Source: Limnomonas spitsbergensis
Lineage: Eukaryota; Chlorophyta; Chlorophyceae; Chlamydomonadales
NCBI GenBank assembly: GCA_037349105.1
Contig: JAYJMM010000022.1
Coordinates: 992,001 to 1,056,000, forward strand
Length of the DNA stretch: 64,000 nt
Direction of reading: 5' to 3'
Each line of letters starts with the position of its first letter. Within the stretch, counting starts at the first letter, position 1. Both the position numbers and the translations under genes were made by a program. Of this stretch, positions 276-62,136 are shown piece after piece. Under the pieces are notes generated by a model. That model had not been told where the DNA came from. It did not search any database and worked only from the letters and a program-made list of their open reading frames with translations.

Positions 276-1749
276 GTCAAGGAGCTGTTCTCAGGCTTCT
301 GCCGGAGCAGCTTGGCTGACATCCAGGCTGAACAGGACGAGGACGAGATGCTGCAGGGGGTGGACTGGGCCGCGGTCACGGAGAGCATTGACACAGAGAA
401 GGACCTGCACAAGAGGCTACCAGGTGGCTGGGTGGCTGAGGGGGGGGGAGCTAGCCTGGAGGATAAGCTGGGGGCTGGGCGTAGTCTGGGGCTTGTGGCT
501 GAGGGGGGGGGAGCTGGGGGCTGGGCGTAGTCTAGGGCTGGGTGGCTGAGGGGGGGGAAGCTGGGGGCTGGGCGTAGTCTGGGGCTGGTGGCTGAGGGGG
601 GGGGAGCTGGGGGCTGGGCGTAGTCTGGGGCTGGGTGGCTGAGGGGGGGGAAGCTGGGGGCTGAGGGGGGGGGAGCTGGGGGCTGGGCGTAGTCTGGGGC
701 TGGGTGGCTGAGGGGGGGGCAGCTGGGGGCTGGGCGTAGTCTGGGGCTGGTGGCCGAGGGGGGGGGAGCTGAGGGCTGGGCGTAGTCTGGGGCTGGGTGG
801 CTGAGGGGGGGAAGCTGGGGGCTGAGGGGGGGGCAGCTGGGGGCTGGGCGTAGTCTGGGGCTGGTGGCTGAGGGGGGGGAGCTGGGGGCTGGGCGTAGTC
901 TGGGGCTGGGTGGCTGAGGGGGGGGAAGCCGGGGGCTGAGGGGGGGGCAGCTGGGGGCTGGGCGTAGTCAGGGGCTGGTGGCTGAGGGGGGTGAGCTGGG
1001 GGCTGGGCGTAGTCTGGGGCTGGGTGGCTGAGGGGGGGGAAGCTGGGGGCTGAGGGGGGGGCAGCTGGGGGCTGGGCGTAGTCTGGGGCTGGGTGGCTGA
1101 GGGGGGGGGAGCTGGGGGCTGGGCGTAGTCTGGGGCTGGGTGGCTGAGGGGGGGAAGCTGGGGGCTGAGGGGGGGGCAGCTGGGGGCTGGGCGTAGTCTG
1201 GGGCGGCTGGCCAGGTTGGGCCGTAGGCGCACAGCGGGATCTGCCACGTTTCAATTAGCATGGAGCTGGCCGCAAGGGCGGGGTTCATCAGCCTTCAGGG
1301 GAGCTGGGGGAGGAAACACACGTGTGGGTGTCCGTCCCTGTTTGATCCTGCCCAGCCCGCACCTCTTTGGTTCAGATGCATCAGCCGGGATATGAGACCT
1401 GCCCCCTTCCTAGGGATCCTGTTCAATTGTCCAGGCGGGGCCGTAGGGCAGCTCTCTCCCCCCTGACTTTTCAATACCCACTCCCCATCCCCCCTACTCC
1501 TCACTCCCCACCCCTCACTCCCCTCTCCCCACCCCCCACTTGTCACTCCCCTCTCCTCACTGCCCACTTCTTACTGCCCACTCCCCACTCCCCACTTCTC
1601 AGAGGTCCAGCCCAGCCTGGGCATAGGCCGACTGTTGAAGCGCCTCTGTTGCCGCGCGCCCGGCACTGTTGCGTCAGATGTAGACGACACCCCGTCCGAC
1701 ATCAACGACCGCTCGGTGAAGGCGCAGGAGAAGCAGAGGAAGCAGGTGC

Positions 1750-1780
<31 letters not shown>

Positions 1781-1817
1781 TGAGAGAGGGGGGGGGGGGT
1801 TATGAGGCGGGGAGCAA

Positions 1818-1875
<58 letters not shown>

Positions 1876-4800
1876 GGGGGGGGGGGTATGAGGCGGGGAG
1901 CAAGTGTGTGTGTGTGTGAGAGAGAGAGAGAGGGAGAGAGAGGGAGGGGGGGGTATGAGGCAGGGAGCAGGTCTGTGTCTTCCATCGTCATTGTTTAACA
2001 GTGAGGGGTTGCACGTGGTTGCTCTCCCCTGCGGCCTCTCTCCCTGCCCCCAAACCTATGACCTGTTTCCCCCCACCCCTGTGCAGCGCATCGAGAAGGA
2101 CCTCTCTTGAGTCTCTTCCCCTTCTCCCCGCTTCTTAAATCGTAACCCGTACCCTCCTCCCCCCCTGTCCACAGCGCATCAAGAGGGACCTCAAGCGCTC
2201 CGAGGAGTGGGATTTCAAGGAGGGAGCTCTACGTGAATCACCCTCAGGGCACATGCACTACTTCTCGCCCAGCACAGATGCTAAGTGAGTAATGCTCAGC
2301 TTTGGCTGCCTTCGGTCCCCAGTGAGGCAGGGGTGGGTGAGGCAGGAGCCAGGGCAGCCGGGCCCTTTCGAAAAATATGGTTGGCTGGATTACTTTGACG
2401 TTGTCACAACTAATTTGTCGTAGTCTGATTCTCTATTCCTCCTCTCATGAGATCCTCTCACCAGATTTTACAAGATCTTCTCATTACGGTACATCCTCTT
2501 GTCGGGTTTTCAAACAAGATCCTCTCGTCAAATCTTATACAATCCTCGCATCATGTCCCCTCATCAGATCTTCTTTCAACATCCTGTCGTCCAGATCTTC
2601 TCAACATGCCCCCTCCTACTTCTCTCGTCATGTCCTCTCATCAGATCTTCTTTCAACATCCTGTCGTTCAGATCTTATCCGCATGCCACCTCCCCTGCCT
2701 CTCATCAGATCTTCTTTCCACATCCTGCCGTCAGATCATCTCAACATGCCCCCTCCTCCTCCTCGCATCATGTCCTCTCATCAGATCTTCTTTCAACATC
2801 CTGTCGTCAGATTATCTCAACCTGCCCCCTCCCCCTCCTCTCATCAGGTTCTTGGTCATAGGTGAGGAGAAAGCCTCAAACCGCTCCACCCTTCTGCAGC
2901 GAGGGCTCTCCATCAAGCGGGGAGCATCAGGCCATGCCCCAAAGCCGGGGCAATGGAGCTTCCGCACCCTTATCAACGGCCTGAGGGGCGGGAATGTGGG
3001 CAGGGGCGGGGGCACCCACGATCGGTCGGCAAAAGGTGGCGCTCACGACAGGTCTTCCCGAGGCGTTGTGAACCGCGGACCCCTGCGCCGCGCCAACAGC
3101 CTAGGCGCTGGGCTGCGCAAGGGGCAGTACCTGCCCTCGGATGCGACCGCTGTTCAGACGAAGCAGAAGCTCTGGGGCGGGCGGCTCGGGGCGCTGTTCC
3201 GCGGCCATACGGCCAGCACCTCCAAGATCTCTTTGGCGGCGGCGGCGGCGGCGGCGAGCCGCGTGGGGAACCACGCTGCCTCCGGCAGGCCTGCCACCCC
3301 CCCGAACGACTTCGGCATCGAGCTGTCCAACGGCTCTGCGGGGATGGTCTCCCCTCCTCCATTGCTCCAGGGAGACAGGGATGCCTCTGATGGTCTGGTG
3401 GCTGTGCACGCCACGGCGGGGAGCAATGGGCAGGCACCCGTTGCTGAGCCCCCGCTCCCCCCCGGGCCCCCTGCCCCCCCTGCGCCCCCTGCGCCCCCGC
3501 CAGGCCCTGCCGGAGCGCCCTCCTCGTCGCCGCGGGCGTCCCCGCATGAAACGGCTTCCTCGATGCTGATGGCGTCTGCGGCTGCCATGGCGTCCAAGAG
3601 CAGCCCGATGCGGAGGCATCGGAAAGACATCCAGAAGCTCTGCGGCGACGACGCGATTATGGCGGCAGTGGAGGCACTGGTGAGTCACAGGCTCACAGCC
3701 CAGCAGCCAGTAAACTTGTGAACCCTATATCATTAACCCTTAACCCTATATCACTAACCCTTAACCTTCTATCTCTAACCCTTTACACCTGTACCTTTAA
3801 CGCTTAAACCCTTGACAGCTGAGTGAGCGAGTTCCAGCCGTCTGACTGGTCCCTTGCCATTGAGGTGGACATGTGTGACCGGAAGGTGCAAGGAAGCTGT
3901 ATGTGCACATGTGTGACCGGAATGTGCAAGGAAGCTGTACGTGGATGCTCAAAGCACAAAAAGGCTTGCACCGGTGATCCTTACGCTTTCCTGCGAGAGC
4001 GTCACGCATCTACCCGACACACTGGCGACTACATGCTTTGCGCTATGATCCCTGTATACCGATGCTGACCGGTGCCAACTGGTGCCTGCCAGCTGCCTGA
4101 TCCTGCTGGCTGCATGCTACTGCCTGTGCCTGGCTCAATTTTCCTGCTCATGCTGGCCGGCTCAATGTGCCTACTTCCCCGCTCCCTGCCTGTCCCTGCC
4201 TGTCCCTGCCTGTCTGTGCCTGCCTGTGCCTTCCGGCTCAATATGCCTGCCTGTGCCTTCCGGCTCAAATCCACCTGTCTGTGCCTGCTCCCTGCCTGTG
4301 CCGGCCGGCTCAAATGTGCCTGCTTGTACCAGCCGGCTCAATATGCCTGCCTATGCCTGCCGGCTCAATATACCTAAACCCTAAACTTTAAACCCTTAAC
4401 CCTATGCCTATGTCTGCCGGCTCAATATACCTGCTTGTACCGGCCGGCTGAATGCCTTGCTCCTTTGCAGGACTTCCAGGATCGTTTTCAGGGCAGCGGC
4501 TCCGTTCCCAGCGAGACCGGGGTGCGGCCGCCTCGCCAGCCCGGAAGCAGCAACATGCGCAGCATTGAGATGGAGCAGAACCGCCTCACTTCCGCCTCAG
4601 CCCAGAGCTTCAACCTGGGCTCAACCGTCGACACGGACAGCAAGCTCGCTTCCCAAGGCCAGTCTCCCACGGTCACAGTCCCCTCTTCCACCGTCGCTGG
4701 CCCCCCTCCTACCGCCGCTGTTAAGCCGGCACTGAGTGCCGATGTCTTCCACTTGGCTGTGCCGCCCGAGGTCGCCAGTTCCTCCTCTTCTACGCCTCAG

Positions 4801-7800
4801 AACACGATCGGCAGATCGCCTTGGCCCCAGGCCACCAGCGCCCCCTCAAACAAGCCACTGGCAGCCAGCGCCTCCTCTCCGGAGCATTTGAACAGTCAAG
4901 TGCCCCTAGATCCTGCCAGCAGCAGGCCATCGACATTCTCAGAATCAGCAGGATCAGTACTCATTGATCTGCCAGAGATTGTTGCGCGCGCCTCCCCGGC
5001 TGCCACTGCGGATGCGCCCGCAGCGTATGCAGCGGTGGATGAGGACACTATCACCTCCCCGCCGCAGCGGCCGGGCCATCGCTCCCTACTGGTCATCAAA
5101 GGCACTGGTGAGGGCTGAGATGGGCTTTTTAGCTGAGGTGGACTGAGGAGAGCTTCTTCGTACCACGGCTTCCGGTGCTTGAAATTCCAGTCCTTCAGGA
5201 TCCAGTGCCACAGGCTCCGATGCTTGAGGTTCCAGTCCTACAGAATCCAGTGCCACGGGTTCTGGTGCCCCATACGACGTACCTATACTGGCACCCTGGA
5301 GATTATAGCCCTGCGTATTTGTACAAGCATTGCATACCGATTGAGTGCGGAGACAAGTGGATGTTGGACATACCAGTATGTACTTTGTAGTGGACATTTC
5401 CCCTTGTCATGACCCCGTCGCCAGGACCTGAAACCACGAGTCCTCGCTCCGAAACCTTCGCTATCTTAACCCTTGAAACCCCCATGCCATGACCTACTCT
5501 CCCCGACTTGCCCGCAGGCACGACATCGTCCAAGGGTCTCAACAAGATGTCCGTGGGCGGGCAGCAGGGGAGCATGGGTTCGTCGGAGTCCGGCACGCCG
5601 TGGGAGCCGCAGCCCGACCTGGCCACGCTCTCCGCACGCGGGGCGGTGCGCTTCGTGCAGCGGACGGGGCGCGGCGGCGCCGGCACCTTTGTCGAGGCGA
5701 TCAACGTGGGTGGCGGCGGCTCTATTGCCGGGAAGCCGCTCGGCAGAGGCTCAGTGGGGAACATGTCGCAGCAGGCACAGCGGTTTATGCTGCCCCCGGG
5801 CGGCGGCGGCGGCGGCCGGCTATCTGGATTGGGCCGGGTAGGTGATGTGGCGGCAGCAGCAGGGGACACGCGGTTTGAGTCGCCGCCTGGTCACGAGCTT
5901 GACGGCATGTCGGACACCTCAGCTCCCCTGCAGCAGCAGCAGCAGCAGCCCGCAGTGGCCAAGCGGTCGCTCAAGACGCACTCGGTCGGTTTTCCGGGTT
6001 TGAACTTGGACGAGCCTGGCAACCGAGCGCTGGGGACAACATCAATCGGCCCGACAGGTTTTAACCCGACGCGTGGGGAGGCGGGCGCAGGCGCGGGCGC
6101 CGACCAGGCGCTAGGCCGCACCTCCGTGCGCCGCGGCGCCATGGCCACGGCCACGCTGGCCGCTCTCGCCGGGGCAGCCCCCGAGGGCAGCAGTGCCTTC
6201 CAGCAGCTGCGCCGGCAGCAGCAGCAGCAGCAGCAGCCCTTCTTCGACTCGCCGCCCGGACACGAGTACGACGGGCTGTACCAGGCGGCGCTGGGCGCTG
6301 CGGCGGAGAGGCCGCTGGCCGCCCGCTCCATGGGCCTAACCGGGGGATGCACCTCCCCCACCCGCGGTCAAAGAGGACCCTCCAACCCGGACGACATGCC
6401 GCTGGGCTCAAAGTCCGTCGGCTACTTCGGCCTTGGCCGCATCGTGGATCAGCAGGAGGCGGCCAACCTCGCGCGTGGCTCGGTGTGCAGCTCGGCGGGC
6501 AGCGGGACACTGCTGGATCGCAGCTCCATCGGGAACAAGTCCCTGGGCAGAGGGTCGATCGGCAACATCGTGCCGCTGGGGCGAGGGTCTGTGGGAAACA
6601 TTACAAGTGTCAACGAGGACGCATGGTATGCATGGGCATTCATGGGATTCCATGGACTACCATGGGCATGCATGGGCTACCATGGGCATGCATGGGCATG
6701 CCTGGTCTTGCCTGTGCATGCCTGGTCTTGCATGGGCATGCCTGGTCTTGCATGTGCATGCCTGGTCTTGCATGGGCATGCCTAGTCTTGCATGGGCATG
6801 TCTGGTCTTGCATGTGCATGCCTGGTCTTGCATGGGCATGCCTAGTCTTGCATGGGCATGTCTGGTCTTGCATGGGCATGTCTGGTCTTGCATGGGCATG
6901 TCTAGTCTTGCATGGGCATGTCTGGTCTTGCATGTGCATGCCTGGTATTGCATGTGCTTGCCTGGTCTTGCATGTGCATGCCTGGTCTTGCATGTGCATG
7001 CCTGGTCTTGCATGTGCATGCCTGGTCTTGCATGTGCATGCCTGGTCTTGCATGTGCATGCCTGGTTTTGCATGGGCATGTCTGGTCTTGCATAGGCATG
7101 TCTGGTCTTGCATGTACATGCCTGGTCTTGCATGGGCATGCCTGGTCTTGCATGGGCATGCCTGGTCTTGCATGGGCATGTCTAGTCTTGCATGGGCATG
7201 TACGGTCTTGCATGTGCATGCCTGGTCTTGCATGGGCATGTCTAGTCTTGCATGGGCATGCCTGGTTTTGCATGGGTATGCCTGGTCTTGCATGTGCATG
7301 CCTGGTCTTGCATGTGCATGCCTGGTCTTGCGTGGGCATGCCTGGTTTTGCATGGGCATGCCTGGTTTTGCATGGGTATGCCTGGTTTTGCATGGGCATG
7401 CCTGGTCTTGCATGAGCATGCCTGGTCTTGCATGGGCATGCCTGGTTTTGCATGGGCATGCCTGGTTTTGCATGGGCATGTCTGGTCTTGCATGAGCATG
7501 CCTGGTCTTGCATGGGCATGCCTGGTCTTGCATGGGCATGCCTGGTCTTGTATGGGCATGCCTGGTCTTGCGTGGGCATGCGCGGTCTTGCATGGGCATG
7601 CATGTTGCGGCCTGTAGCACGTACAGATCCTGTTTTGACTCGTGTGCATCATGTTAGGGGCCTTGTGAACCATTTCATATACCTCATGTGAGGTGTTCAA
7701 GCCTTATATTCCTGATTGCTTGAACCCTGCTGGCTGATGGCTTTCTTTGACCGTTGTGGTTGGCTGATTGCACGGCCACGAGGCTGACTGTTGTATGCTG

Positions 7801-10800
7801 TATTTTGGCCGCCGGTGCTGTGACCACTTTTGTTTCAGTTATGGGAGCATGGTGGCATATTTCTGATCTCCGTTGCAGCTTTATTTCGTCTGAACAGTGA
7901 ACACCCCGCACCAGTTCCTTGTGGGGCTAGGAGCAGAGGGCGATATGCCTGTCAGCAGGGGCTCTCTCCCGGGCCTTCTGTGCGTGCGCCCTCTTCGCTG
8001 CCCTACCCTCGTCTTGTCCTCAGCCTCCTCACGAGGCTCCCATGAGGCCCCCACCATCCCCCTGGGGCCCCTCACCTTTGTGAGCTCCTCTCTATCCTGA
8101 TCTGTGAATGTGTTCCAGTCTAGCAGAGCATCACAATGGGCGCCCTCAACACCCTTGGGATCATCTGTTTTTGTTGACCCTCCCCCCTCCCTGTCGTGAT
8201 TCAAAACCTAACAGGGCGGCCGCCAACGCCGCCAATGTCGGGCCTGTTCTCCCCTCACCCTTGGGGCCCTCACCTTTTTTACCCCCCACCCTCCCCCGCC
8301 AATGTCGGGCCTGTTCTAGCTCCCCTCACCCTTGGGGCCTTCACCTCTTTTACCCCCCACCCTCCCCCGCCAATGTCGGGCCTGTTCTAGCTCCCCTCAC
8401 CCTTGGGGCCTTCACCTCTTTTACCCCCCACCCTCCCCCGCCAATGTCGGGCCTGTTCTAGCTCCCCTCACCCTTGGGGCCTTAACCTTTTTTACCCCCC
8501 ACCCTCCCCCGCCAATGTCCGGCCTGTTCTAGCTCCCCTCACCCTTGGGGCCTTCACCTCTTTTACCCCCCACCCTCCCCCGCCAATGTCGGGCCTGTTC
8601 TAGCTCCCCTCACCCTTGGGGCCTTCACCTCTTTTACCCCCCACCCTCCCCCGCCAATGTCGGGCCTGTTCTAGCTCCCCTCACCCTTGGGGCCTTCACC
8701 TTTTTTACCCCCCACCCTCCCCCGCCAATGTCGGGCCTGTTCTAGCTCCCCTCACCCTTGGGGCCTTCACCTCTTTTACCCCCCACCCTCCCCCGCCAAT
8801 GTCGGGCCTGTTCTAGCTCCCCTCACCCTTGGGGCCTTCACCTTTTTTACCCCCCACCCTCCCCCGCCAATGTCGGGCCTGTTCTAGCTCCCCTCACCCT
8901 TGGGGCCTTCACCTCTTTTACCCCCCACCCTCCCCCGCCAATGTCGGGCCTGTTCTAGCTCCCCTCACCCTTGGGGCCTTCACCTTTTTTACCCCCCACC
9001 CTCCCCCGCCAATGTCGGGCCTGTTCTAGCTCCCCTCACCCTTGGGGCCTTCACCTCTTTTACCCCCCACCCTCCCCCGCCAATGTCGGGCCTGTTCTAG
9101 CTCCCCTCACCCTTGGGGCCTTCACCTTTTTTACCCCCCACCCTCCCCCGCCAATGTCGGGCCTGTTCTAGCTCCCCTCACCCTTGGGGCCCTCACCTTT
9201 TTTACCCCCCACCCTCCCCCGCCAATGTCCGGCCTGTTCTAGCTCCCCTCACCCTTGGGGCCTTCACCTCTTTTACCCCCCACCCTCCCCCGCCAATGTC
9301 GGGCCTGTTCTAGCTCCCCTCACCCTTGGGGCCTTAACCTCTTTTACCCCCCACCCTCCCCCGCCAATGTCGGGCCTGTTCTAGCTCCCCTCACCCTTGG
9401 GGCCTTCACCTCTTTTACCCCCCACCCTCCCCCGCCAATGTCGGGCCTGTTCTAGCTCCCCTCACCCTTGGGGCCTTCACCTCTTTTACCCCCCACCCTC
9501 CCCCGCCAATGTCGGGCCTGTTCTAGCTCCCCTCACCCTTGGGGCCTTCACCTCTTTTACCCCCCACCCTCCCCCGCCAATGTCGGGCCTGTTCTAGCTC
9601 CCCTCACCCTTGGGGCCTTAACCTTTTTTACCCCCCACCCTCCCCCGCCAATGTCGGGCCTGTTCTAGCTCCCCTCACCCTTGGGGCCTTAACCTTTTTT
9701 ACCCCCCACCCTCCCCCGCCATTGTCGGGCCTGTTCTAGCTCCCCTCACCCTTGGGGCCCTCACCTTTTTTTACCCCCCACCCACCCCCGGTCATGATTC
9801 AAACCCAACAGGGCTGCAGCCGCCGCCGCCACCGCTGCCGCTGCCAATGTGGGGCCCTCTGTCATGTTGCCCTCCGCAACCCTGCACCACCACGCCACGA
9901 TTGTGGAGGGTGTTGAGATGCACTTCGATGAGCAGGATGGGTCGGGAGGGGGCCAGAACCAAGACATGGAGGCAGGCGGGCAAGAGGATGAGAGGGGCAT
10001 GCCTCAGGTGGGCCTGCTACTGCCTGAAGAACACCGCTCACTATCTGCTGACTTGAATGTTGACTGTCACGAGTCAGCGTTAACACACCCGGACTGCTGA
10101 TTGTCACCGATCATCGTTCACTTACAAGGACTGCTCATCGGTCATGGACTGTTCACCACACCCTGCTCTCCAGTTGCTTATTGCATGCTCTATGAGCCAT
10201 ATACAATACAGCCCTCCCAGCCTTCCTGCTCTCCAGCCGCTTATTGCATGCTGTATGAGCCATATACAATACAGCCCTTCCAGCCTTCCTGCTCTTCAGC
10301 CGCTTATTGCATGCTGTATGAGCCATATACAATATAGCCCTCCCAGCCTTCCTGCTCTCCAGCCGCTCATGGCATGCTGCCCCCTGTCCTCCCAGCCCCT
10401 TCCTGTGTAAATCGCCTTCCCTGCCTCCCTGCGCAGATGCTGCCTGAGTACCGCATGCGTCTGCTGACGGGCCTCAAGCAGTACTACAAGGGGAAGTTCG
10501 TGGAGGGCGTGCTGAGTGCCAAGGTGAGCAGCCCAGCAGCCCTTTCCAAAAATGTATAATAACATAATATTACAATCAGGGTGTCCTCGAGGATGCTGTA
10601 CCGGTGGCTGCAATTCAGCTATCTTCTGGCCTGTGGAGGGGACGCCTGGTCCGGCAAGACCTGCTGCTTGGGCCACCGACTGTAGGCTGGTCAAAATTTG
10701 GTCTCCATTGGTCCGGTTGTGGCTGTCCACCAGCCTTCCTAGGGTAGTCTGATGTGTGCACTCATATGAACGCTGCCCTCCCCCCGCTTGCACCCCCCCC

Positions 10801-25236: not shown

Positions 25237-25267
<31 letters not shown>

Positions 25268-25503: not shown

Positions 25504-25534
<31 letters not shown>

Positions 25535-25590
25535 GCCTCTGACTGGGTCAAGGCTGCTGCTGCTGCTGTTGCTGCCTCTGACTGGGTCAA

Positions 25591-25621
<31 letters not shown>

Positions 25622-25856: not shown

Positions 25857-25893
<37 letters not shown>

Positions 25894-49962: not shown

Positions 49963-52900
49963 ATGTCCTCCCAGTTGGAGGCCCTGGAGCTGCACCTCCG
50001 CAAGGCGTATGATCGCATCGTTTCGGCTTATGGTCCCTCGGCTGGAGTGCAGGTGCGTCAAGCCAGGAATATCAACAAGCGATGTTTAATCGAAGCAGGA
50101 AATTCGTCTGTCGCCGAGGACTGGCGATCGAAATCCTTGGTCGTTGCACGTGCAGGCGATCGGCAAGATCCTATGCACGCACTCCGTCGAGACGCGGGAA
50201 CAAATAGGCTTGTCGATGGAGAAAGTAACCTTGGTTTCCGATGACCTGGCAGAGCCCATGCTGTCACTCCCGGAGTCGCTTCCAGACTCGTGCGCTGAGG
50301 ACGCTGACGCTGACACTTCGAAGTCTGAAGAACGGTACGAGCACCGGGGTTGTTATGCAACCTGTTCGTGACCAGCATTCCACACAAGGCATTTCATGTC
50401 ATTTGTGCCGTATCCCCATGCTAGCCCCATGCTGACCCCACCATGCTCGTCCCCATTATGGTCATCCAATCCTCGTCTGTTGCGCCTTCGTTTGCATTAA
50501 GATGGATGAAAGGTACCCCTACGAGCAGCTTGCATTACTTTTGGTGTTTCCTCCTTTCAGGGCGGCTGTATCCAAGGCCCCCAATCGGTGGCTTCGTGCA
50601 GTGCAGGCCGCTGTGCAATCCATCGATCCGTGGTCTGGGCGGAACCTGCACGAGCTTCCGATGGAGCACTGCGTGAGGCTACGGTACAACAATCAAACCG
50701 GGCAATGGGTCAAGGACGACGGTGCGCACAAGGGTCTCAGACACTGTTCATTCCAGGGTGTGCTTCATCCACAAGGGTCTTAGACACTGTTCATTCCAGG
50801 GTCCTTATGCTACAAGGGTCTCAGACACTGTTCATTCCAGGGTGCTTCATCCACAAGGGTCTTAGACACTGTTCATCCCAGGGTGCTTCAGCTACAAGGG
50901 TCTCAGACACTGTTCATTCCAGGGTGCTTCAGCTACAAGGGTCTTAGACACTGTTCATTCCAGGGTGCTTCAGCTACAAGGGTCTCAGACACTGTTCATT
51001 CCAGGGTGCTTCAGCTACAAGGGTCTTAGACACTGTTCATTCCAGGGTGCTTGAGCTACAAGGGTCTCAGACACTGTTTATGCCATGGTGCTTCAGCTAC
51101 AATTCAGCTACATCGCGTCTGGGGGGGGACACTGGTGCGGCAATTTTTTGCTGTAGCCACAAACTGTTGGCTGATCAAGTTTTGGCACCCGTTGGCCCAG
51201 TGGTGGCTGCCCAGTGGCTTGCTGAAGGTGGTCTGGTGTGAAAAACAAGCACGAGGACACTCAGATCACACCCATGCGAATGCACTGCTTGAACCACAGT
51301 ACAAATTATCGCATCGTCCACACCTGTGATGGCTCACCGATTGGATTTTCCTCGCTGAGGACCCTATGACCCTCTTCACCCCCTCCAGTTTTGGTCAAGA
51401 TGGAGGGCAAGCCTTTTGCTGCCGGGGCCATGCGAGAGTGTTATGCAATGAAGAAGCTGAGCACATTTGGGTGGGTGGCTGGGTGCCATTGTTTATTGGA
51501 GTGCAAGCTAGACCCCCATAGGTCAGCTTGGGACCAAACCTGGACCGGCCAGTTGCCCCCATCGGCAGAGCTTGCAGCACCTTTGTGTAGAGACTAGGAA
51601 TGTGCTGCTGCCTCATCCGCTTAAGACTTCAGCTGCCCCCTAGCCCGCCCCCGCCCACCCTACCCCTATGGGGCGCTGTGCATCCTAGCTAGCAGCACGC
51701 GCAGAACTGTGAAGTCCAGCGCTGACATGAGCCACCTCCAAGCCTCCCCCCTCCCCCCTGCCCCTATCCATCCCGCTCAGCAGCGCTTGTGTACCATGAT
51801 ATGAGCCTGCCCTGAACCTGCCCTCCTCCCCCCTGCCCTGCTCAGTAGTGCTGTGCAGTATGATATGAGCCTGCCCTGAACCTGCCTTCCTCCCCCTGCC
51901 CTGCTCAGTAGTGCTGTGCAGTATGATATGAGCCTGCCCTGAACCTGCCCTCCTCCCCCCTGCCCTGCTCAGTAGTGCTGTGCAGTATGATATGAACCTG
52001 CCCTGAACCTGCCCTCCTCCCCCCTGCCCTGCTCAGTAGTGCTGTGCAGTATGATATGAGCCTGCCCTGAACCTGCCCTCCTCCCCCCTGCCCTGCTCAG
52101 TAGTGCTGTGCAGTATGATATGAGCCTGCCCTGAACCTGCCCTCCTCCCCCCTGCCCTGCTCAGTAGTGCTGTGCAGTATGATATGAGCCTGCCCTGAAC
52201 CTGCCCTCCTCCCCCCCTGCCCTCCTCCCCCCTGCCCCGCTCAGTAGTGCTGTGCAGTATGATATGAGCCTGCCCTGAACCTGCCCTCCTCCCCCCTGCC
52301 CTGCTCAGTAGTGCTGTGTACCATGATATGAGCCTGCCCTGAACCTGCCCTCCTCCCCCCTGCCCTGCTCAGTAGTGCTGTGCAGTATGATATGAGCCTG
52401 CCCTGAACCTGCCCTCCTCCCCCCTGCCCTGCTCAGTAGTGCTGTGCAGTATGATATGAGCCTGCCCTGAACCTGCCCTCCTCCCCCCTGCCCTGCTCAG
52501 TAGTGCTGTGCAGTATGATATGAGCCTGCCCTGAACCTGCCCTCCTCCCCCCTGCCCTGCTCAGTAGTGCTGTGCAGTATGATATGAGCCTGCCCTGAAC
52601 CTGCCCTCCTCCCCCCTGCCCTCCTCCCCCCCTGCCCTGCTCAGTAGTGCTGTGCAGTATGATATGAACCTGCCCTCCTCCCCCCCTGCCCTCCTCCCCC
52701 TTGCCCTGCTCAGTAGTGCTGTGCAGTATGATATGAGCCTGCCCTGAACCTGCCCTCCTCCCCCCTGCCCTGCTCAGTAGTGCTGTGCAGTATGATATGA
52801 ACCTGCCCTGAACCTGCCCTCCTCCCCCCCTGCCCTGCTCAGTAGTGCTGTGTACCATGATATGAACCTGCCCTGAACCTGCCCTCCTCCCCCCTGCCCT

Positions 52901-55900
52901 GCTCAGTAGTGCTGTGCAGTATGATATGAGCCTGCCCTGAACCTGCCCTCCTCCCCCCTGCCCTGCTCAGTAGTGCTGTGCAGTATGATATGAGCCTGCC
53001 CTGAACCTGCCCTCCTCCCCCCTGCCCTGCTCAGTAGTGCTGTGTACCATGATATGAACCTGCCCTGAACCTGTCCTCCCCCCCCCTGCCCTGCTCAGTA
53101 GTGCTGTGCAGTATGATATGAACCTGCCCTGAACCTGTCCTCCTCCCCCCTGCCCTGCTCAGTGGCGCTGTGTACCACGACTGGAAGCGGGCGCAGAACT
53201 GTGTGGCCAAACGCTACATGAAGGATGCCAAGAAGCGGGTCTACTTCGGTGACGTGCTGGTACAGATGGACGCAAAGTTCCTGGGAGAGCAATGGAACCA
53301 GACTGAACCACCAAAGAAGGTGAGGGGTGGAACAGGGTTTAGGGATTTCAGAACATGGTGAACCTAAACCCTTAACCATGAACCCCAAAGTTCCTGGGAG
53401 AGCCATGGATCCAGACCAACCCACGAAAGAAGGTGCGGAGTGGAGCAGGATTTTAGGTATTCAAAGCACGTTGCACCTAAACCCTAAACCGTAAACCCCA
53501 AAATTCCTGGGAGAGCAGAGGAACCAGACTGAGCCACCTGAAGAGGTGAGAATGAGGCCAGGTTTAAGGATATAATTTATAAGCAAATCTGAATCTATCG
53601 TCCTTCACCCTTAACCACAAAATTCCCGGGGGAGCAGTGGGACGAGAGATGGAACCGCGAAAGAAGATGAGAAACAAAACCCAGAGCACCCGCCTGTGAC
53701 AGCTTGGGGCCCAAGGTGACATGGGGGTGAGAGATTGATTACAAGACGTACAGGGCCACATAAGGAGGGGCTGATGATGCATTTCTTGCGTTGCGCGCCA
53801 GACCACCCATGAGGGTTCTCTGTGTGTCCATCGCTAGGCCGATTGGGAACAGCTCTACGCGAATCACCCTCAGGGCACGTGCACTATTCCTCCGCCAGTA
53901 CAGACGCTAAGTGAGTAATGGGGTGAGGGATTGATGCCCACCCATGGGGGGGTCGCTTTGTGTCCACCACTGGGCCGATTGGGAACAAACCCTGCCCGGC
54001 CTGCAGCCGGTGGCCTATAAACTGTCGGGCCTGTTGCACGAGGCCCCATCATCGCAGACCATGATGTAGCTGAAGTGTAGCTGAAGCATCTTTAAACCAG
54101 TACCAGTTTCGCTCATACGGCGGCCAAGGCACTCGTCAGCTATGCCAAGGTATCAGGTTTGCCATCTCTTTCATCCTGGAGGGAGGGGTTTCACGGGCCT
54201 GGTGGTTCTTGTGGAAGGGCGTGGGTCGCTGCCTCACCTTGCCCGTGCACTCCCGCGGTTGGCCATGCTGCAGTGTGTGCCCTTGAGCCTAGGTATTGCT
54301 GCCTCTCCCTGCCTACCTGCGCTGCCTTCAGCTACATGTTCAGGTGGATGTGCTGCAGTGTGCAATCCTGCTACCTCATGCTATTGACCCCTGCCTCCCT
54401 TCACCCACTCCTCCAGGTGGATGTGCTGCAGTGTGCAATCCTGCAGTTCTGCGATCGCCCAGGGTCACCGCTCTTCTGCGTCGAGCAGCTGATTGAGGGG
54501 GACTACGTCAAGTATAACTCAAACAGGTGTTTCATCCCTGAGCCTCAAGTCCTGATTTTTTGTTGTGTCAAGTACAACTCCAGTACGTGTTCCCTGGCAT
54601 TCACGGCCTGCTTGTTTTGATAGCGCATACCCCAAATCCGTTTTCGTAACTGTCAGGGCCAAATTGCACGATCAGGCCATGGCTGCAGCCGACCGGATGC
54701 CTGTGCTGCTTGCTTGTATGGCATCGTTCCTTATGAGGGCCGCCCGTGTTTGACTGAAGGTCTGGTGCTTTATTGCTGCTCATGCTCGTGCTCGTGCTTA
54801 TGTTGCAGTGGCTTTGTCAAGGGAGGTGACTCGGACATCCTGCGGTATACCCCTCAGGTGCGCCGTTGCTTCTCATTACCCCGCCAGGACTGATAGCACG
54901 AGCATAACTGTAACCCTTAAGCCTAAGTTTTCCAGCCGAAGCTGGGATGCATGTTCTTACCAAAACACTTTGCCCCTCCACGTCATCTGGAAAGCATATA
55001 TGCCCTCATCCCTGAATCGTAACCTAGAGGGATTTTTTCCATGACGCAGGCCTTCAGTCACTACACCTATGAGCTGACTCACGGGTACAAGATATGTGTG
55101 GACATTCAGGCAAGTGCAATCCATGCAATTGATGTGTGGGCTAATGAAGACTGCCCTGCTAAGATTTTGTATACATTTGAATCAGAGGGGCTCATCACCA
55201 TGTGGGGGTTACTGCATGACATGTTTGTGTTCTTGTCATTCTGACCTCACAGGGTGTGGGGGATCTGTACACGGATCCTCAGATCCACACTTTGGATGGG
55301 GAGAACTACGGCGAGGGCAACCTGGGCTCGCGGGGCATGGCGCTCTTCTTCCGCTCACACGTGTGCAGCGAGCTCTGTGAGCGCCTCAAGCTGCAGCCTT
55401 TCGCAAGGTGAGTGCAACCTGGGCTAGCGGGACATGGCGCTTTACCACTGCTCTCACGTGTGCAGAGGGCCGTATGATCCGCTCAAGCTGTAACCTCCCG
55501 TGAGGTGAGAGGAACCTAGGCTGGCGGGGCACTGTGGGGATGGCATTCGTCCCAGGGCCATACTTGGACTTCCAGATTACCGGTATAGCATAAACCACCA
55601 GCTTTGTTTCGACATGCTTCCAAATTCCAACACAGTGTCCATGGTTCAGTCTTTCAGGTAAGTGGATGTCAGGATTTGGAGGCTCTTTCAGTTTTCCAGG
55701 TTAGTGGGGCATGGCGCTTGCCTACTGCTCTCACATGTGCAGCGGGTCATGTGATCCCCTCAAGCTGAAACTTTTGGTGAGGGTATAGGAGTGTCAGCTA
55801 TGTTTATTTCAGGGTGCTTCGGCTACAGTTCAGCTACATCACGGCCTACGGCCGTTGGGGCCTTGGTGCGGCATGTTTCCTGCTGCTTGAGCCGTCATTT

Positions 55901-58900
55901 GGAAGCATGAAACGCGGAGGACGCGTACACATCGTTCAAAGCAGTTGTTTTTCTACACCCCGTTGAGCGCAAACAAGGCACATTGGTGAATGCAAACTAC
56001 CGACGGCACTACAGGAAGGATAAAAGTGCATTGGTAGTAAGGCCTGGGACCTTCACTTACATCACTGTCACACCAACCTGCATTGTTCTATTCATATGGG
56101 ATGGTTACGGAAACCATGTGCCATGCCACGGACAGAATGGGTGTGGCTTCCTTAATCCAAACACTCGCATGCATATTGATTTGTTTATTGATGTGGGGTT
56201 GTTACCACCCTATGTACTGGTACCGGTATCTTACTTGTGATGTCACAACTTACACTGCAACATAACCGCCGCTTATACAAGCAGTAATTACCTGCTAGGA
56301 CACAAAAGCAACAATGCATTCCCAACACAAACACAAAGACACATATACGCAAAGAGGTACAGAAGACGATGAAGAACATGCCATGGTGTGCATGCTAGAC
56401 ATGCAGTCCTTCACCGCTCATGTGTCACATTGCTTAGTTATCGATACCAGGATAAACGAGGGCGACATTTCATTATTCATGTTTTTAACACATGCCATAC
56501 ACTCCATGCTGTAGATATAAAGAATGCTAGGAGACACTGGAGATGGACACTGCCCAAGTGAAAGGTGGTACACACATTCTTGACCGTAATCTACTGTCAC
56601 AGATTCATGGGATCTATTCACCAGATCTATTCATCGGATCTACTGGCATAGATTCACCAGATCTATCTCATCTCTCGGTCCCCATCAGCCCAGTGGTGGT
56701 CGCCCAGCACATGATGCCTGCCCAGGATGGTCTGATACACAAAATCCCGGTCCCTGACCTTCTACCTATCACATCATATGAGATGCTGAGCTGTGTGCCT
56801 TCCGGCTAATGTAGGTGCGAAGCCGACATCAAGGCTCAGGGCTATGCCAGCGAGAGCAGCTCCGTGGGAGCCCTGGGCTCGACACTCGTCCGCACCATTG
56901 TGAGAGGGGGCGGCGGAGTGGCTGTGCCCATTTATTGAGCTTCAGATACCATTCACCTACCATTCAACTATATCACACACCCAGTGCTCAACCCTGTTCT
57001 GCACCGTTGTGAGAATGGGGGCAGCTGACTGGTGGGTGGCAAACAAAACTGCCGAGCAAAGTTTGATACACATCCGCTGGTTTTGTTTCCTAGTATGTAT
57101 GACTTCACCGGGTAGCTCCCTTCATCCCTGCCTCCAGGTGCACATGCCTCTCTGTCGTTCTTGAGCTTCCCCTTGAGGTTTTGGGGGTGGATAGGATCCC
57201 GGGCTACCTGCCCCGCTTAGAAGTGCCGTTTGTTGAGCGCTTGCTTTCTGCCGTGATGGTGTGGATGGGGCTGACGAGCTTTCAGCTCTAACCCGCCTCC
57301 TCCAGTTCCAGCACTTCTCACCCATGGTGATAGCTCCTTCACAACCCAGTCCCTTGCTCCAGGTCCGCCAACTAGGCCTGGTTTGGTCGTCATCCCTGAA
57401 CCCTGACTCAGCAAGCTGTCTCTTGCGCTAGGTGCGCCAACTAGGCCTGGTTTGCCCTTCACCCTAAACACTAAACCCTGAACCTTTAACCTCTCTATAC
57501 CGGTAGTGCTCATTGTATGGCGGGAAGCACCGTTTCAAACCTCACCCCTTAACCCTTAACCCTTAACTCTTAACCTCCCTCTTCCTCCAGGTCCGCCGGC
57601 CAAGCTACCGCAAGCGCTTGGAGCGTAAGCTCAACTTGGCACAACCTCGCAGCAAGGCTGACCTTACGGCATCACTGAAGAACGTGCCGGCAGGTGACAC
57701 TTTCAACAATGCTTCTTGTGCTTACACTGAAGTTCAGCTACAGTTCAGCTACCTGCCTGCCTCTGGCTGGAGGCCTCATGCATGGCCTGCCATGCTGTTT
57801 GAGCTGCTGGCTGTAGGCTGGTCAAGATTTGGTCCAAATAAATGTGTCTTGTCTGAAGGGCGAGGCTCGCAGGAGATGGCCTCGGGACTTGAAAAGGGAT
57901 GGGCCGGGCATGGGAGCGTTGGGGGGCCCGTACCAAGGGCTCTGTGTCATAAAAAGTGTGACATCCCCCCCAATTGATGCATGCGGGGCACCAAGATGAC
58001 AGGCTGGAAGGTGTGAACATAAATGTGATGTGCCCTGCCCCAATAGGTGCCCTCCTGCTGGTGTGCCTGATGTTCCTTTCTGCCTCTCAACCACCCTTCA
58101 GCTGTGCACCTCATCTGGCCCTCTTGCTCACGTACTTTCCTCAGCCACAATACCGTATGCTGTCTCCCTCATGTGGCCCTTCTGCTCCCTTCCTCAACTG
58201 ACTCTTCTGCTTCTATTTCCCTCTCAGTTGAGACCCCCACGGCGCTAGTCCACTTGGAAATCGCCAAGATGTATGCGGAGGGGACGCTGCTGCCTGAGCT
58301 ACGGCCGCAGGTAAGACATGGTTCGGGTATTGGTAGGTGCTGCACTGCCACTGGGACATCCCGCAGGAGAGGGAGGGTCATGCTTGCCTGGGCAACCACC
58401 ACAGGAAGGGAGCTAGGGAGGGATTTGCTGGACTGAACAAGCAAGGACTGAGCAAGGACTGAACAAGCACAGGCTGAGCAAGGACTGAACAAGCACGGAC
58501 TGAACAAGCACTGCGGAGACAGACCTGTCCGATCCGTCACCGTAGTGCTTGTCCAGGCCAGTAAATCCCTCCCTGGCGAACCTGAGCTAAACCGGGGCCT
58601 CCATCTCCCGACCTCTTCTCTATCCAAATCTTTCTCGCCCCTCATATGCAGGAGAATCCTGAGGATGCGCTGCAAGGCGGACTCTTCCACCTGCACCATG
58701 CTGCGTCACAGGTGTGGAAGTGTGGGGTGTGCTGCATTCTCGGGTTGTAGGGGGGGCCACTTAGGGTGGATGGGTGGGGGCTCCTCAGGGCTCCACTCAG
58801 GGTGCGGGGGGGAGGGGGTGCTCCTCACGCGCTCACATGGAACGCTTCTGTGCGCACTCCCTGGTTTCCCATTGGGTCAGGACCGGCATGTGCAGGAATG

Positions 58901-61900
58901 CAAAGAAGTCTCGGACGGGGTCAAAGAATTGCGTATGCATTCAAATTGCCCTTTTGCCCTATTGCCCTATTGATCTTGCCTGCCTGGGTTGCCCTACGTA
59001 TGAAGTTTTGATTCACAATCTTGGCGGGCGCTGGCCAGTTTTTTATTTTCCATGGCTTTGCTACCGTTCTACAACGGTTTAGCACCTTCTTTCCAACGGT
59101 GGGTGGGCCCCATACCTGGCCTGCAAGGCTGCTTGGGCCTCAACCCGCAGGGAAGTCAAGGGTTTGCCCACCTCCTTGGCGGTCACAGGGAGGCCCACCA
59201 GAGAATAACTCATGAAGCTGGAAAGCCGGGGGGAAATGCTGGTGCTGCTTGATTGACACTCACGCTCTTTCCTCTACAGGGCTCCCGTGTGACGCTGAGT
59301 ATGCCTAACGCTCAACTTAGAACCCTGAAACCCTTAATCTGGAACCCTTAACCCACGAAACCTCAACCCCTGAACTCATTGATCTGACATTGATCTGGAA
59401 CCCTCAACCCATGAACCATTTACCCCACTCATTAATCTGGCAGGGTTCTCGGGTGGCGCTGTGCTTGCTGGCAAGGGTGCACTCGGGCTTGGAGCCGACG
59501 AGCACTCAGTTTTCCCACCTGATCAAGGTGAGGTCGGGCTTACAAAGAGGGGGGAAATCAAACCCTGAACGCTAAGCCCACCTGATAAGCTGAGGCCCGG
59601 GACTGCCCTCAAATCGGAAGCCTTCATGGTCACCTTGCAAGGAGGCTTTGCATGCATCCTTTGTAGCCTTGAGATGTTTGAAATGAATTATTTGCTGCCT
59701 CACGCCGCATGGCAAGCACCCTCTATTGCCTTGAGGTGTATGGCCTGCACCATCTGATGCCTTATGCTGCACGGCCGTTACTATCTATTACCCTGGCCGA
59801 TACTATCTGTTACCCTGGCCGATACTATCTGTTACCCTGGCCGGTACTATCTGTTACCCTGGCCGGCACTATCTGTTACCCTGGCCGATACTATCTGTTA
59901 CCCTGGCCGGTACTATCTGTTACCCTGGCCGATACTATCTGTTACCCTGGCCGGTACTATCTGTTACCCTGGCCGATACTATCTGTTACCCTGGCCGGTA
60001 CTATCTGTTACCCTGGCCGATACTATCTGTTACCCTGGCCGGTACTATCTGTTACCCTGGCCGATACTATCTGTTACCCTGGCCGGTACTATCTGTTACC
60101 CTGGAGCACCTGGTCTGCACCCTCTGTTGCCTTGTGGCACATGGCCAGCGCATGCGAGGGATGATCTTCTGTGTGTTGAAGCCACCATCTTTGGACCTGC
60201 ATCTGGATGTCTCTGCGTTCAACTCGTCACGTAAATGCCTGTATTCTGAATCTTGAACCCTGAATCCCAGACATCTCTGTTTGCAGCTGCTAAGCAGAAG
60301 CTTTTAAATCTATTCCCCCGCGTCTCTGCATACAGCTTTCCAAGCCCTTAACCCTAAAGCATGGACAACTCGCCTAGAATGCCCTAAACCCTGGACACTT
60401 CTCGCTCCTGGTGTGCAGTTGGCTAAGCAGTCTGGAAACCTCGAGGTGTTCCCTGACCTGGCCTTCACATACGCCAAACTGGCGGCCGACCGAGGAGTCC
60501 TGGCAGCGTGCGCTGCAGTGGCCCACGCCTATGCTACAGGCCAGGTGAGGCTCCATACCTAAGCCTTAGTTGTACGTTTGCTTGACAGGCTGCTTCCATT
60601 CAGGCGTACTGCTGGCTAAGACCAACTACATGATAATGAGTAATTACCCTATTCTGTATGAGTGCGCACCCGACCACCTTGGGCCGACGAGGCCCAAACC
60701 TGGGCCGGCCTGGAGGCAGGGCTTGCTGCACCAAGTTCTTACGATGGTAGAATATGATGTAGCTGAATTGTAGCTGAAGCACCCCAAATGTCATGGTGGC
60801 ATGACCCTTGTTTACCCACACTTGACGCAGTGCTGCTTGTGTGGTGTGCAGGGCCTGGGTGCTGAGGTTCTGGAGGAGCCACAGCCTGCATTGGCAGTGG
60901 ACATGTACCAGAGGCTACTGCTGCAGGACAGACCCAAGGCAAGCCCAGTCAGTTAGGGCGAGCGCTAGAGGGAACGCCCAGCCCTCATTTGGACTTACTG
61001 GACAAAACCCCAGGCACTGCGGTTCAAAGTTCCTAGTTTAAGGTTTAGGGTCCATGACCTAAAACCCTCAACCCTAAATCCCGGGCATTGTGGTTCAAAA
61101 TTCCTCTTCGCCGCTGTGGCTTTGAGCTGCTGATGCTGTGTCTGTTTTAGCTGAGGTGCTATAGAATTCACAAGGTGCGCCTGTGAGTCCTGTTACTGTG
61201 CCGTATGTCACCAGGAGGAAGACGAGGATTGGTTTGAGGATGCGAACGAGGGCGGCGCGCATCATTCCGACCTGTCGAGCTCTGGAGGCGAGATGCAGTC
61301 GTTTTCGGTGCCCGCCCGTATCGGCCAGAGCCTGCTGATGGCGAACCGCGATGCGTGGGTGGAGCTGGGCCGCCTCAGGGCCACTGCAGGGCGCACCTCC
61401 CTGGAGGACGCGGTGATGCCGGTTTCGGAGCCTTTCCGCACGGCGCTCAAGGCCGCGGCGGAGGAGGAGGCAATCGCCCTCCCAGGAGCCGCGATGCATA
61501 GGTGAGTGGCCTGGGAGGAGCGGGGGCAGAGCTGCTCTGTAGAAGTGTGCTGGGAGGGTGGCTTTGATGCAGAGGTGAGTGTTCTGGGAGGAGTGGGCAG
61601 AGCTCCTCTGTAGAGGTGTGCTGGAAGGGGGGTGGCTTCGATGCAGAGGGATGAGTATTCTGGGAGGAGCAGGAGAGTGGGCGGGGTGATCTCCGTTTCC
61701 ATGGTGTGGCTGCTGCTCCGAAGCTCTCCTGTTTCCATCGTGAGTGCGGACGAAGGTGGCACTAACTGAAGAGTGGGCAAATTGCAGCTGCATTGCAGGT
61801 GTTTTTTTCTTTGGAGAACTCTAAAACACCTGCAATGCAGCTGAACTTTCTGCGACTATGACACCATGTTCGCGGTACGGTGTTTCCTGATTCTAATCAA

Positions 61901-62136
61901 GTGCTCCTGGGGCGCCACTTCGAACCCTGAACCCGTTGCGTTGCTGGCGCAGGTATGAATTGCTGGCTGCTCTTGGCGGTCTGCTCATGGCGGGCGGGCA
62001 TGGCTTGAAGTGTGATTACCCGGCAGCTGCAGGATACTTCAACGAGGCCGCGGAAGCAGCAGAAACGGCCCTTAAAGCAAAGCTGAGCATGAAGTATTAT
62101 GGCCTTGCGGCTGAAGCTGAGGGCATGATGGAGTAA
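49963..62136 (+). CDS. EEF2K: Eukaryotic elongation factor 2 kinase (alpha-kinase), 18 exons, complete
   Basis: Exons: 49963-50052, 50156-50334, 50561-50721, 51389-51470, 53163-53319, 54417-54526, 54809-54857, 55050-55109, 55253-55407, 56815-56899, 57591-57693, 58228-58310, 58652-58711, 59444-59527, 60419-60544, 60852-60938, 61215-61501, 61953-62136. They total 2,142 nt (713 codons plus TAA), close to the roughly 725 of animal eEF2K. An in-frame TGA at 49951 fixes the start ATG. In order: calmodulin-binding-like NRWLRAVQAAVQSIDPW; alpha-kinase with KMEGKPFAAGAMRECYAMKK (catalytic Lys), NCVAKRYM, PPKK, EGDYVKYNSNSGFV, TPQAFSHYTYE, DIQGVGDLYTDPQIHT (catalytic Asp), the GNLGSRGMALFF glycine loop and the zinc-type SHVCSELCE; a short linker; Sel1-like helices; and the signature C-terminus GGHGLKCDYPAAAGYFNEAA. 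It phosphorylates eEF2 and slows translation elongation, Ca2+/calmodulin-dependently in animals. Introns after exons 8 and 16 use GC donors. Confidence 0.93.
50722..51095 (+). repeat. 41-bp minisatellite starting at the eEF2K exon 3 donor
   Basis: Nine copies of TACAAGGGTCTCAGACACTG plus TTCATTCCAGGGTGCTTCAGC. The first copy begins within the donor (gtgcgcacaagggtctc). Confidence 0.95.
51085..51237 (+). repeat. Dispersed repeat, copy E
   Basis: Head GTGCTTCAGCTACAATTCAG, then a GGTGCGGCAATTTTTTGCTG block, GATCAAGTTTTGGCACC and GCCCAGTGGTGGCTGCCCAG. The neighbouring 41-bp array ends in GGTGCTTCAGCTACAA, so the two have merged. Confidence 0.7.
51790..53162 (+). repeat. 64-bp minisatellite of acceptor plus exon-start copies
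   Basis: About 20 copies of a 64-bp unit with CCCTGCCCTGCTCAGTAGTG, CTGTGCAGTATGATATGAGC and CTGCCCTGAACCTGCCCTCC. The last copy is the functional eEF2K acceptor: CCCTGCCCTGCTCAG followed by exon 5 TGGCGCTGTGTACCACGACT. Some units keep CTGTGTACCATGATATGA, the clearest decayed exon start. Each unit therefore carries a complete polypyrimidine tract plus AG. Confidence 0.95.
53320..53670 (+). repeat. Degenerate copies of eEF2K exon 5 end plus donor
   Basis: Exon 5 ends aagttcctgggagagcaatg, gaaccagactgaaccaccaa, agaag, then gtgagg. Copies lie at 53387-53432, 53499-53550 and 53618-53665, each preceded by telomere-like AACCCTAAACC or AACCCTTAACC. Confidence 0.9.
53851..53920 (+). pseudogene. Ectopic copy of antiporter exon 3 end plus donor inside an eEF2K intron
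   Basis: This 70-nt segment aligns without gaps to 2225-2294 with 8 mismatches (62/70). It encodes ALRESPSGHVHYSSASTDAK where the antiporter exon has ALRESPSGHMHYFSPSTDAK, and it keeps the GTGAGTAATG donor. An AG lies at 53836-53837, so a 73-nt cassette exon (53838-53910) could be recognised. Its length is not a multiple of three, so inclusion would break the eEF2K frame. Confidence 0.85.
54000..54105 (-). repeat. Dispersed repeat, copy F
   Basis: On the minus strand: GCTTCAGCTACACTTCAGCT, ACATCATGGTCTGCGATGAT, then GGGGCCTCGTGCAACAGGCC. In an eEF2K intron, antisense. Confidence 0.55.
55408..55790 (+). repeat. Degenerate copies of eEF2K exon 9 end
   Basis: The exon segment ggcaacctgggctcgcgggg, catggcgctcttcttccgct, cacacgtgtgcag recurs at 55417-55510 (caacctgggctagcgggaca, tggcgctttaccactg, ctcacgtgtgcag) and more weakly at 55700-55780. 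Confidence 0.85.
55811..55900 (+). repeat. Dispersed repeat, copy G
   Basis: GGTGCTTCGGCTACAGTTCA, GCTACATCACGGCCTACGGC and CTTGGTGCGGCATG. In an eEF2K intron. Confidence 0.65.
57461..57590 (+). repeat. Telomere-like tract before eEF2K exon 11
   Basis: AACACTAAACCCTGAACC, then CCTTAACCCTTAACCCTTAA just upstream of the acceptor. Two earlier acceptor/exon-start copies, AGGTCCGCCAACTAGGCCTG (57361) and AGGTGCGCCAACTAGGCCTG (57431), mimic the real CAG plus GTCCGCCGGCC. Confidence 0.8.
57733..57860 (+). repeat. Dispersed repeat, copy H
   Basis: TTCAGCTACAGTTCAGCTAC, TGGCCTGCCATGCTG, GTAGGCTGGTCAAGATTTGG and TCCAAATAAA. In an eEF2K intron. Confidence 0.65.
59785..60105 (+). repeat. 22-bp minisatellite
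   Basis: About 15 copies of GGCCGRTACTATCTGTTACC plus CT, with A and G at the variable position often alternating. In an eEF2K intron. Confidence 0.95.
60660..60790 (-). repeat. Dispersed repeat, copy I
   Basis: On the minus strand: GGTGCTTCAGCTACAATTCA, GCTACATCATATTC, CTTGGTGCAGCAAGCCCTGC, CAGGTTTGGGCC. In an eEF2K intron, antisense. Confidence 0.7.
61502..61680 (+). repeat. Copies of eEF2K exon 17 end plus donor
   Basis: The real junction gcgatgcatag, gtgagtggcctgggaggagc is followed by copies at 61564-61595 (tttgatgcagag, gtgagtgttctgggaggagt) and 61636-61670 (ttcgatgcagaggg, atgagtattctgggaggagc). Confidence 0.85.
61785..61843. other. Perfect 21-bp-stem hairpin in eEF2K intron 17
   Basis: Arms 61785-61805 (starting CAGCTGCATTGCAGG, ending GTGTTTT) and 61823-61843 (starting AAAACACC, ending TGCAATGCAGCTG) are exact reverse complements, with a 17-nt loop. 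Confidence 0.9.

Follow-up and report, generated by a model that had tools for sequence, protein, structure and literature searches.

Exon-edge copies in the introns of two green-alga genes suggest ordinary tandem duplication spilling over splice borders

In a 64,000-nt stretch of the green alga Limnomonas spitsbergensis (contig JAYJMM010000022.1 of assembly GCA_037349105.1; the whole stretch is called the window here), introns of two genes contain copies of the edges of their own flanking exons. The window is GC-rich and carries two multi-exon genes, both on the plus strand: gene 1, which encodes an unnamed protein, and gene 2, which encodes a eukaryotic elongation factor 2 kinase (eEF2K). 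Together they provide the 37 introns and 74 junctions analyzed below. We confirm that the exon-edge copies are real, and consider it highly probable that they arose by ordinary intronic tandem duplication that spills over splice borders and is filtered by selection, with no engine aimed at splice sites.

The 50-nt exon edges of all 74 junctions were aligned locally to their own intron, and the summed scores were compared with those of 20000 permuted pairings. For donors the sum was 775, compared to 584 ± 21 for permuted pairings, and for acceptors it was 666, compared to 578 ± 16. None of the 20000 permutations reached the observed sum on either side, whereas the reverse complement of the own intron stayed near baseline (589 for donors and 562 for acceptors). 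A stricter test used ungapped 26-mers spanning the junction, with 16 bases from the exon and 10 from the intron, and counted 18 or more matches as a copy. Ten of the 37 donors and five of the 37 acceptors had a copy in their own intron, spread over 13 introns, where other introns predict 0.19 and 0.06, or about 0.25 together. On the reverse strand this test yielded no own-intron copy at any donor or acceptor, and for donors the own-intron sum on that strand was 524, slightly over its mean of 511. The copies are thus local, on the same strand and in the same intron, as is expected of border-crossing tandem duplication. Their quality ranges from complete identity (33/33 exon bases in gene 1 intron 16, 28/28 in gene 2 intron 5) down to diverged, barely readable alignments. 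These results bear out an initial annotation, which had claimed that introns hold copies of their own flanking exon edges, from nearly perfect to barely readable; flank copies are indeed commoner in the true introns than in assigned ones.

Besides the exon edge, the duplicated unit contains the splice site and the intron flank, the flank being clearly repeated in some copies and not in all. Copies extend into text resembling the true intron flank in gene 1 introns 10 and 16 and at the donor of gene 2 intron 5. Several copies are units of arrays over or up to the border, for which Tandem Repeats Finder (TRF) reported unit lengths of 113 bp (53273-53550), 189 bp (11570-11962), 64 bp (51796-53172) and 71 bp (8229-9790). 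Border-crossing arrays and repeated flanks have the structure of a tandem duplication reaching over the border, sometimes amplified, which agrees with the earlier descriptions of border-crossing duplication and of copies amplified into minisatellites.

The initial annotation had also cast duplication at splice junctions as a general engine of intron growth. We determined the share of 26-base windows with a copy in the same intron as a function of distance from the junction. On the donor side the rate was 0.26-0.31 at the junction and 0.27-0.34 inside the intron, while in the exon it fell to 0.17 roughly 33 bases in, to 0.07 at around 50 bases, to 0.05 at around 80 bases and to 0.015 deeper. 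On the acceptor side it was 0.12-0.18 at the junction, 0.22-0.42 inside the intron and, in the exon, 0.05 at a depth of 28-60 bases and approximately zero beyond. Identical windows compared with one other intron gave 0-0.02, and in mid-intron windows the rate averaged 0.41, with a median of 0.24 (33 introns). When junction windows were compared with windows 30-100 bases inside the intron, the junction/intron duplication ratio was 0.71 (bootstrap 95% interval 0.47-1.05), with 0.85 (0.53-1.29) for donors and 0.56 (0.25-1.06) for acceptors; at a stricter threshold of 20 matches it was 0.48 (0.26-0.76). Neither the positional profile nor the bootstrap detected a duplication peak at the border in these two genes of one window. 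A junction hotspot was thus not found, and a junction-centred engine is not supported. Our guess is that the lower acceptor rate could reflect a cost that AGs newly arising upstream would carry, the numbers being small (10 donors, 5 acceptors).

The shape of the profile can be reproduced by uniform placement. A model using intron-derived units with a period of 30 or more, in which the survivors are those that keep the outer site, predicted rates of 0.247, 0.234, 0.120, 0.054, 0.017 and 0.008 at exon depths of 10, 20, 33, 50, 80 and 125 bases. The observed rates, both sides pooled, were 0.236, 0.199, 0.110, 0.060, 0.027 and 0.007. For 93% of the duplicated intron windows the nearest copy lay 8-120 bp off, and an internal copy was held by 45% of 150-nt intron segments compared to 3 of 43 exon segments. 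Such a scarcity of exon-internal duplications would follow from selection against those that alter the protein.

The 18 exons of gene 2 give one open frame of 713 amino acids, whose product matches Pfam PF02816. Residues 12-713 align with a Chlamydomonas eustigma protein (64% identical), and residues 98-536 and 652-713 align with the solved eEF2K 7shq (E 4.6e-95). Among the matches listed, which are the best 120 of 7992 candidates scored, the closest protein was that of C. eustigma (64%). All copied junctions are gap-free in the C. eustigma alignment, in which a gap of one residue lies four residues beyond the junction of exons 6 and 7. Two introns of gene 2 open with GC (GCAAG, at 55110-55114 and 60939-60943) and not with GT. 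In gene 1 a single open frame spans all 21 modelled exons. Its C-terminal part of 611 amino acids (exons 8-21) aligns with the partial Haematococcus lacustris protein P0121 at 44-45% identity and 99% coverage, with no gap at introns 9-20, which include the copied junctions of introns 9-11, 13, 14, 16 and 17. A Pfam scan of these 611 amino acids gave no match at E 0.001. Exons 1-7 were modelled from frame and splice consensus, on which the intron 2, 3 and 6 copies therefore also rest. The modelled outer splice sites are thus supported by homologs in gene 2 and in gene 1 from exon 8 on. The earlier claim that the outermost site stays functional holds in so far as this site gives a homolog-colinear protein in these same regions, and the RNA would presumably use it. 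The copies there lie inside one intron of homolog-colinear models and do not create new introns, and the inner exon copies have turned into intron, as the annotation had proposed.

The 18 ranges originally listed as copies fall in 16 introns, 11 of which pass the strict 26-mer test. We compared each range with 39 to 605 control segments, a check of pre-picked ranges and not an unbiased test. Seventeen of the 18 scored above every control segment; the remaining one, 11209-11300, failed at the junction, where 6 of 239 control segments reach its score. When exon bases alone were compared with shuffled edges, 11 ranges had p <= 0.02. The seven others, without exon-only signal, were the gene 1 intron 3 acceptor and intron 11 donor, the gene 2 intron 10 and 17 donors and the gene 2 intron 10, 13 and 14 acceptors. 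Four listed ranges carry just 6-9 exon bases (2440-2847, 13343-14135, 57361-57455 and 61564-61670). A clear copy at 22216-22266 and a weaker one at 14988-15003 were absent from the list.

The most likely course of events is the following. Local tandem duplications are frequent throughout these introns and would start anywhere. A unit lying across a border would produce exon edge, splice site and intron start followed by exon edge and splice site again, with the mirrored order at an acceptor. Only alleles whose outermost site still serves in splicing would keep the protein intact, and selection would retain the outer exon edge while the inner exon copy decays as intron; some units would amplify further into minisatellites. 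The intron would lengthen and collect decoy sites, both as side effects of a duplication process that acts all over the intron. In this form we retain the original idea that introns lengthen and gather decoys, without its engine directed at splice sites. The duplications themselves could be caused by slippage, unequal exchange or break repair.

In the strong form of the initial annotation's reading, growth would be driven from the junction, if splicing or the splice-site sequence, for example through co-transcriptional breaks or reverse splicing, made duplications start preferentially at borders. Own-intron copies at 15 of the 74 junctions would fit such a process, as would the greater length of the 13 introns with junction copies (median 1097 compared to 419.5 for the 24 others, p 0.0018), although length is confounded, as longer introns offer more room for any repeat. 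The ratio for gene 2 alone points the same way at one threshold (1.23), and so does a genome-wide concentration of tandem repeats near intron ends reported for two green algae (PMC3887541, accessible part). Since the profile has no peak at the junction and is if anything lower on the acceptor side, we regard a junction-directed process as very unlikely. Chance or low-complexity similarity would be in keeping with the four listed ranges that depend on 6-9 exon bases and with the seven of 18 without exon-only signal. For the set as a whole it is excluded by the permutation, reverse-strand and shuffled-edge controls and we give it next to no weight, while it may apply to single weak ranges.

Alternatively, the repeated junctions could be retained for a role in alternative splicing or as regulatory decoys, and some transcripts would use the inner copies. 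GT is kept in 15 of 19 hand-picked inner donors. However, 16 of the 19 are weaker than the real donor, with a mean gap of 3.8 bits. The three that are not weaker all lie in gene 1 intron 10, and those at 11750 and 11947 score above the modelled donor. The exon 10 frame runs open into the array at 11570-11962, up to a stop ending at 11950. With strong inner donors and an open frame, alternative donors are therefore possible in this intron. Inner acceptors showed no clear weakening relative to real acceptors, and they equal the real one in gene 1 intron 2, in the first copy of gene 2 intron 14 and in the array of gene 2 intron 4; the scores at the hand-set positions 11239, 59281 and 60337 are meaningless, as these positions are off the AG. 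Homolog proteins lack matching insertions, and copy quality from perfect to barely readable is what decay predicts. Retention for alternative splicing is thus in our view unlikely.

Several observations weigh against duplication that is uniform along the intron and simply spills over the border. The data come from two genes of one window. The fit of the uniform model is a consistency check, because unit lengths and profile were taken from the same introns, and units below 30 bp were omitted. The median mid-intron rate is no higher than 0.24. For gene 2 alone the ratio was 1.23 at a threshold of 18, 1.02 at 17 and 0.87 at 20, values that carry no interval, so there may be a mild local excess at gene 2 junctions. 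The flank past the splice site is unmatched in the second copy of gene 2 intron 9 and at the gene 2 intron 5 acceptor, and in gene 1 intron 10 three inner donors score at least as high as the modelled donor. Finally, a flat model predicts no enrichment of tandem repeats near intron-exon junctions, as found genome-wide in the two green algae (PMC3887541, accessible part). This mismatch may arise because all tandem repeats were counted there, the short ones falling partly outside our 26-base test.

Human introns have reportedly been derived from tandem arrays, in work by Zhuo et al. from 2007. The initial annotation knew of no named system of the present kind, which does not hold. According to the accessible parts of the papers cited here and below, tandem genomic duplication is among the named mechanisms by which introns are gained (PMC3443670), and in potato one such duplication crosses an intron-exon boundary (PMC4974935). 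As in the alga, the potato duplication inherits splice signals and turns part of the former exon copy into intron. In that single case, however, a new intron arises through use of a cryptic donor and the coding sequence grows, whereas in the alga existing introns lengthen and 15 of 74 junctions are affected at the strict cut-off. In human segmental-duplication genes, internal variable tandem repeats at exon-intron boundaries likewise alter intron extent (PMC2812944), there in recent paralogs, where the outcome is described as intron formation and alternative splicing as opposed to a steady lengthening of old introns. The Rogers-type AGGT model and the Drosophila cases (PMC3443670, PMC2891723) share with the alga a duplication whose extra copy is hidden from the protein by retained splicing; the model begins at an exonic AGGT or proto-splice site and creates an intron, whereas the algal unit holds an existing splice site. 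New Daphnia introns (PMC4202315) resemble ours in having repeats, ascribed to break repair, and a passive trend to greater length, but their direct repeats lie in newly gained introns, and the repeats that an adjacent exon shares measure 4-12 bp. In the two green algae introns have the highest tandem-repeat density, and the accessible part of that study makes no mention of an exon origin of the units (PMC3887541). Border-crossing duplication itself is thus already known, and what is new is a dense example of it lengthening existing introns. We found no description of it as a routine lengthener of existing introns in the open-licence literature, which is a weak absence.

Table 1. Modelled genes and exon-edge copies in the window (exon-only p values are from comparison with shuffled edges).
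Feature	Position	Strand	Details
Gene 1	276..27988	+	21 modelled exons, unnamed protein; model cut by window start, both ends open
Gene 1 exons 1-7	276-423, 1603-1745, 2175-2284, 2848-3679, 4471-5107, 5518-6625, 9812-10007	+	
Gene 1 exons 8-14	10437-10523, 10816-10926, 11342-11590, 13198-13342, 14274-14335, 14859-14948, 21799-21970	+	
Gene 1 exons 15-21	22483-22606, 23031-23151, 24120-24314, 25981-26064, 26391-26537, 26839-26910, 27815-27988	+	
Gene 2	49963..62136	+	Eukaryotic elongation factor 2 kinase, 18 exons, 713 amino acids, stop 62134-62136
Gene 1 intron 10, donor copies	11731..11956	+	Four windows of at least 17/26; best 23, 22, 19 of 26
Gene 1 intron 11, donor, 47-bp minisatellite	13336..14137	+	Begins 7 bases inside exon 11 and runs through donor (TRF); no exon-only signal, p 0.78
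Gene 1 intron 13, weak donor copy	14988..15014	+	18/26; one indel
Gene 1 intron 14, donor copy	22216..22266	+	22/26; 41-nt exon alignment 22216-22256 plus donor
Gene 1 intron 16, three donor copies	23232..23488	+	23, 19, 18 of 26; one with 33/33 exon bases identical
Gene 1 intron 17, three donor copies	24511..24720	+	20, 20, 19 of 26
Gene 2 intron 5, three donor copies	53386..53676	+	Period ~113; two pass 17/26, middle one inside TRF array; best exon alignment 41/47 identical
Gene 2 intron 6, donor copy	54567..54596	+	18/26
Gene 2 intron 9, two donor copies	55417..55783	+	18/26 at 55489; 55727-55775 by alignment; TRF
Gene 2 intron 10, donor copy	56985..57020	+	19/26 at 56993; exon-only p 0.16
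Gene 2 intron 17, donor copies	61559..61670	+	18/26 at 61559; 9 exon bases; exon-only p 0.28
Gene 1 intron 2, acceptor copy	2077..2104	+	19/26; 18-nt exon part, 2 mismatches
Gene 1 intron 3, acceptor repeat array	2440..2847	+	Reaches exon 4 acceptor; ~6 exon bases; exon-only p 0.83; TRF; junction origin unproven
Gene 1 intron 6, acceptor copy and array	8205..9811	+	Copy 8205-8230 (21/26), then 71-bp minisatellite 8229-9790 (TRF), its unit containing a piece resembling exon 7; true acceptor 9811/9812 follows
Gene 1 intron 9, acceptor, tandem duplication	11199..11299	+	~100 bases; weak at junction itself; deeper exon part 11263-11288 aligns to 11364-11389, exon-only p 0.02; preceding intron text, read directly at 11199, recurs 100 bases later at 11299
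Gene 2 intron 4, acceptor	51672..53162	+	Diverged exon copy 51672-51730 and 64-bp minisatellite (TRF 51796-53172) with ~20 copies of AG plus exon 5 start; 17/26 or more reached in 20 windows
Gene 2 intron 5, acceptor copy	54334..54371	+	28/28 exon bases identical; second window 19/26 at 54249
Gene 2 intron 10, acceptor, three windows	57128..57455	+	57128, 57353, 57422: 18, 20, 17 of 26; ~7 exon bases in best window; exon-only p 0.50
Gene 2 intron 13, diverged acceptor copy	59271..59306	+	Score 28, 0/493 controls; exon-only p 0.61
Gene 2 intron 14, diverged acceptor copies	60277..60345	+	Score 25, 0/328 controls; exon-only p 0.29

The introns of both genes contain further repeats. Most of gene 1 intron 13 is a 30-bp minisatellite (15782-21725; ~198 copies, 98% matches) that is open in several frames. 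The 70-bp stretch 2225-2294, comprising the tail of gene 1 exon 3 and its donor, recurs on the same strand 51 kb away in gene 2 intron 5 (53851-53920, 88% in the BLAST piece), as either a dispersed exon-donor copy or a mobile sequence turned coding in gene 1. A dispersed family of ~180 bp occurs in introns of both genes (51090-51270, 10607-10756, 54063-54087, 55816-55843 and 60756-60780) as one long copy, 71% identical, and several short pieces of its ends, which lie in both orientations; two more short matches lie at 27053-27079 and 28570-28611. The telomere-like motif AACCCT is abundant in the introns of both genes, e.g., at 3721-3800, 53360-53385, 57460-57580 and 59320-59420, with a sense bias of 58 AACCCT to 6 AGGGTT. 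Without gene 1 intron 11 the counts are 34 and 6, with a first-order expectation of 8.6 for AACCCT. The corresponding counts are 6 and 12 in the region 28.2-49.9 kb and 1 and 1 in exons.

Outside both genes, TRF detected large tandem repeats (314 and 242 bp) at 44138-45429. A divergent histone pair lies at 30628-31092 (minus strand) and 31200-31655 (plus strand). By eye the minus-strand open reading frame (ORF) looks H2B-like and the plus-strand one H2A-like, and the minus ORF matches Pfam Histone. The Pfam scan of this ORF and five others gave one Histone match, one PHD finger and four ORFs without a match.

Conspicuous length has been described for introns in Chlamydomonas reinhardtii and its close relatives, and the accessible part of the source leaves the driving mechanism open (PMC8226300). 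The window presents a concrete, measurable source of intron length, in which exon edges mark each duplication and its decay. A possible though rather doubtful extension is that a one-way ratchet operates in those chlamydomonadalean algae in which local tandem duplication is frequent, where every surviving border-crossing event would add exon-derived intron and none would return it, and which together with intron-internal duplication would set their unusually long, repeat-rich introns. The window also shows how decoy splice sites can accumulate in an intron without selection for them, which is relevant to gene prediction in such genomes.

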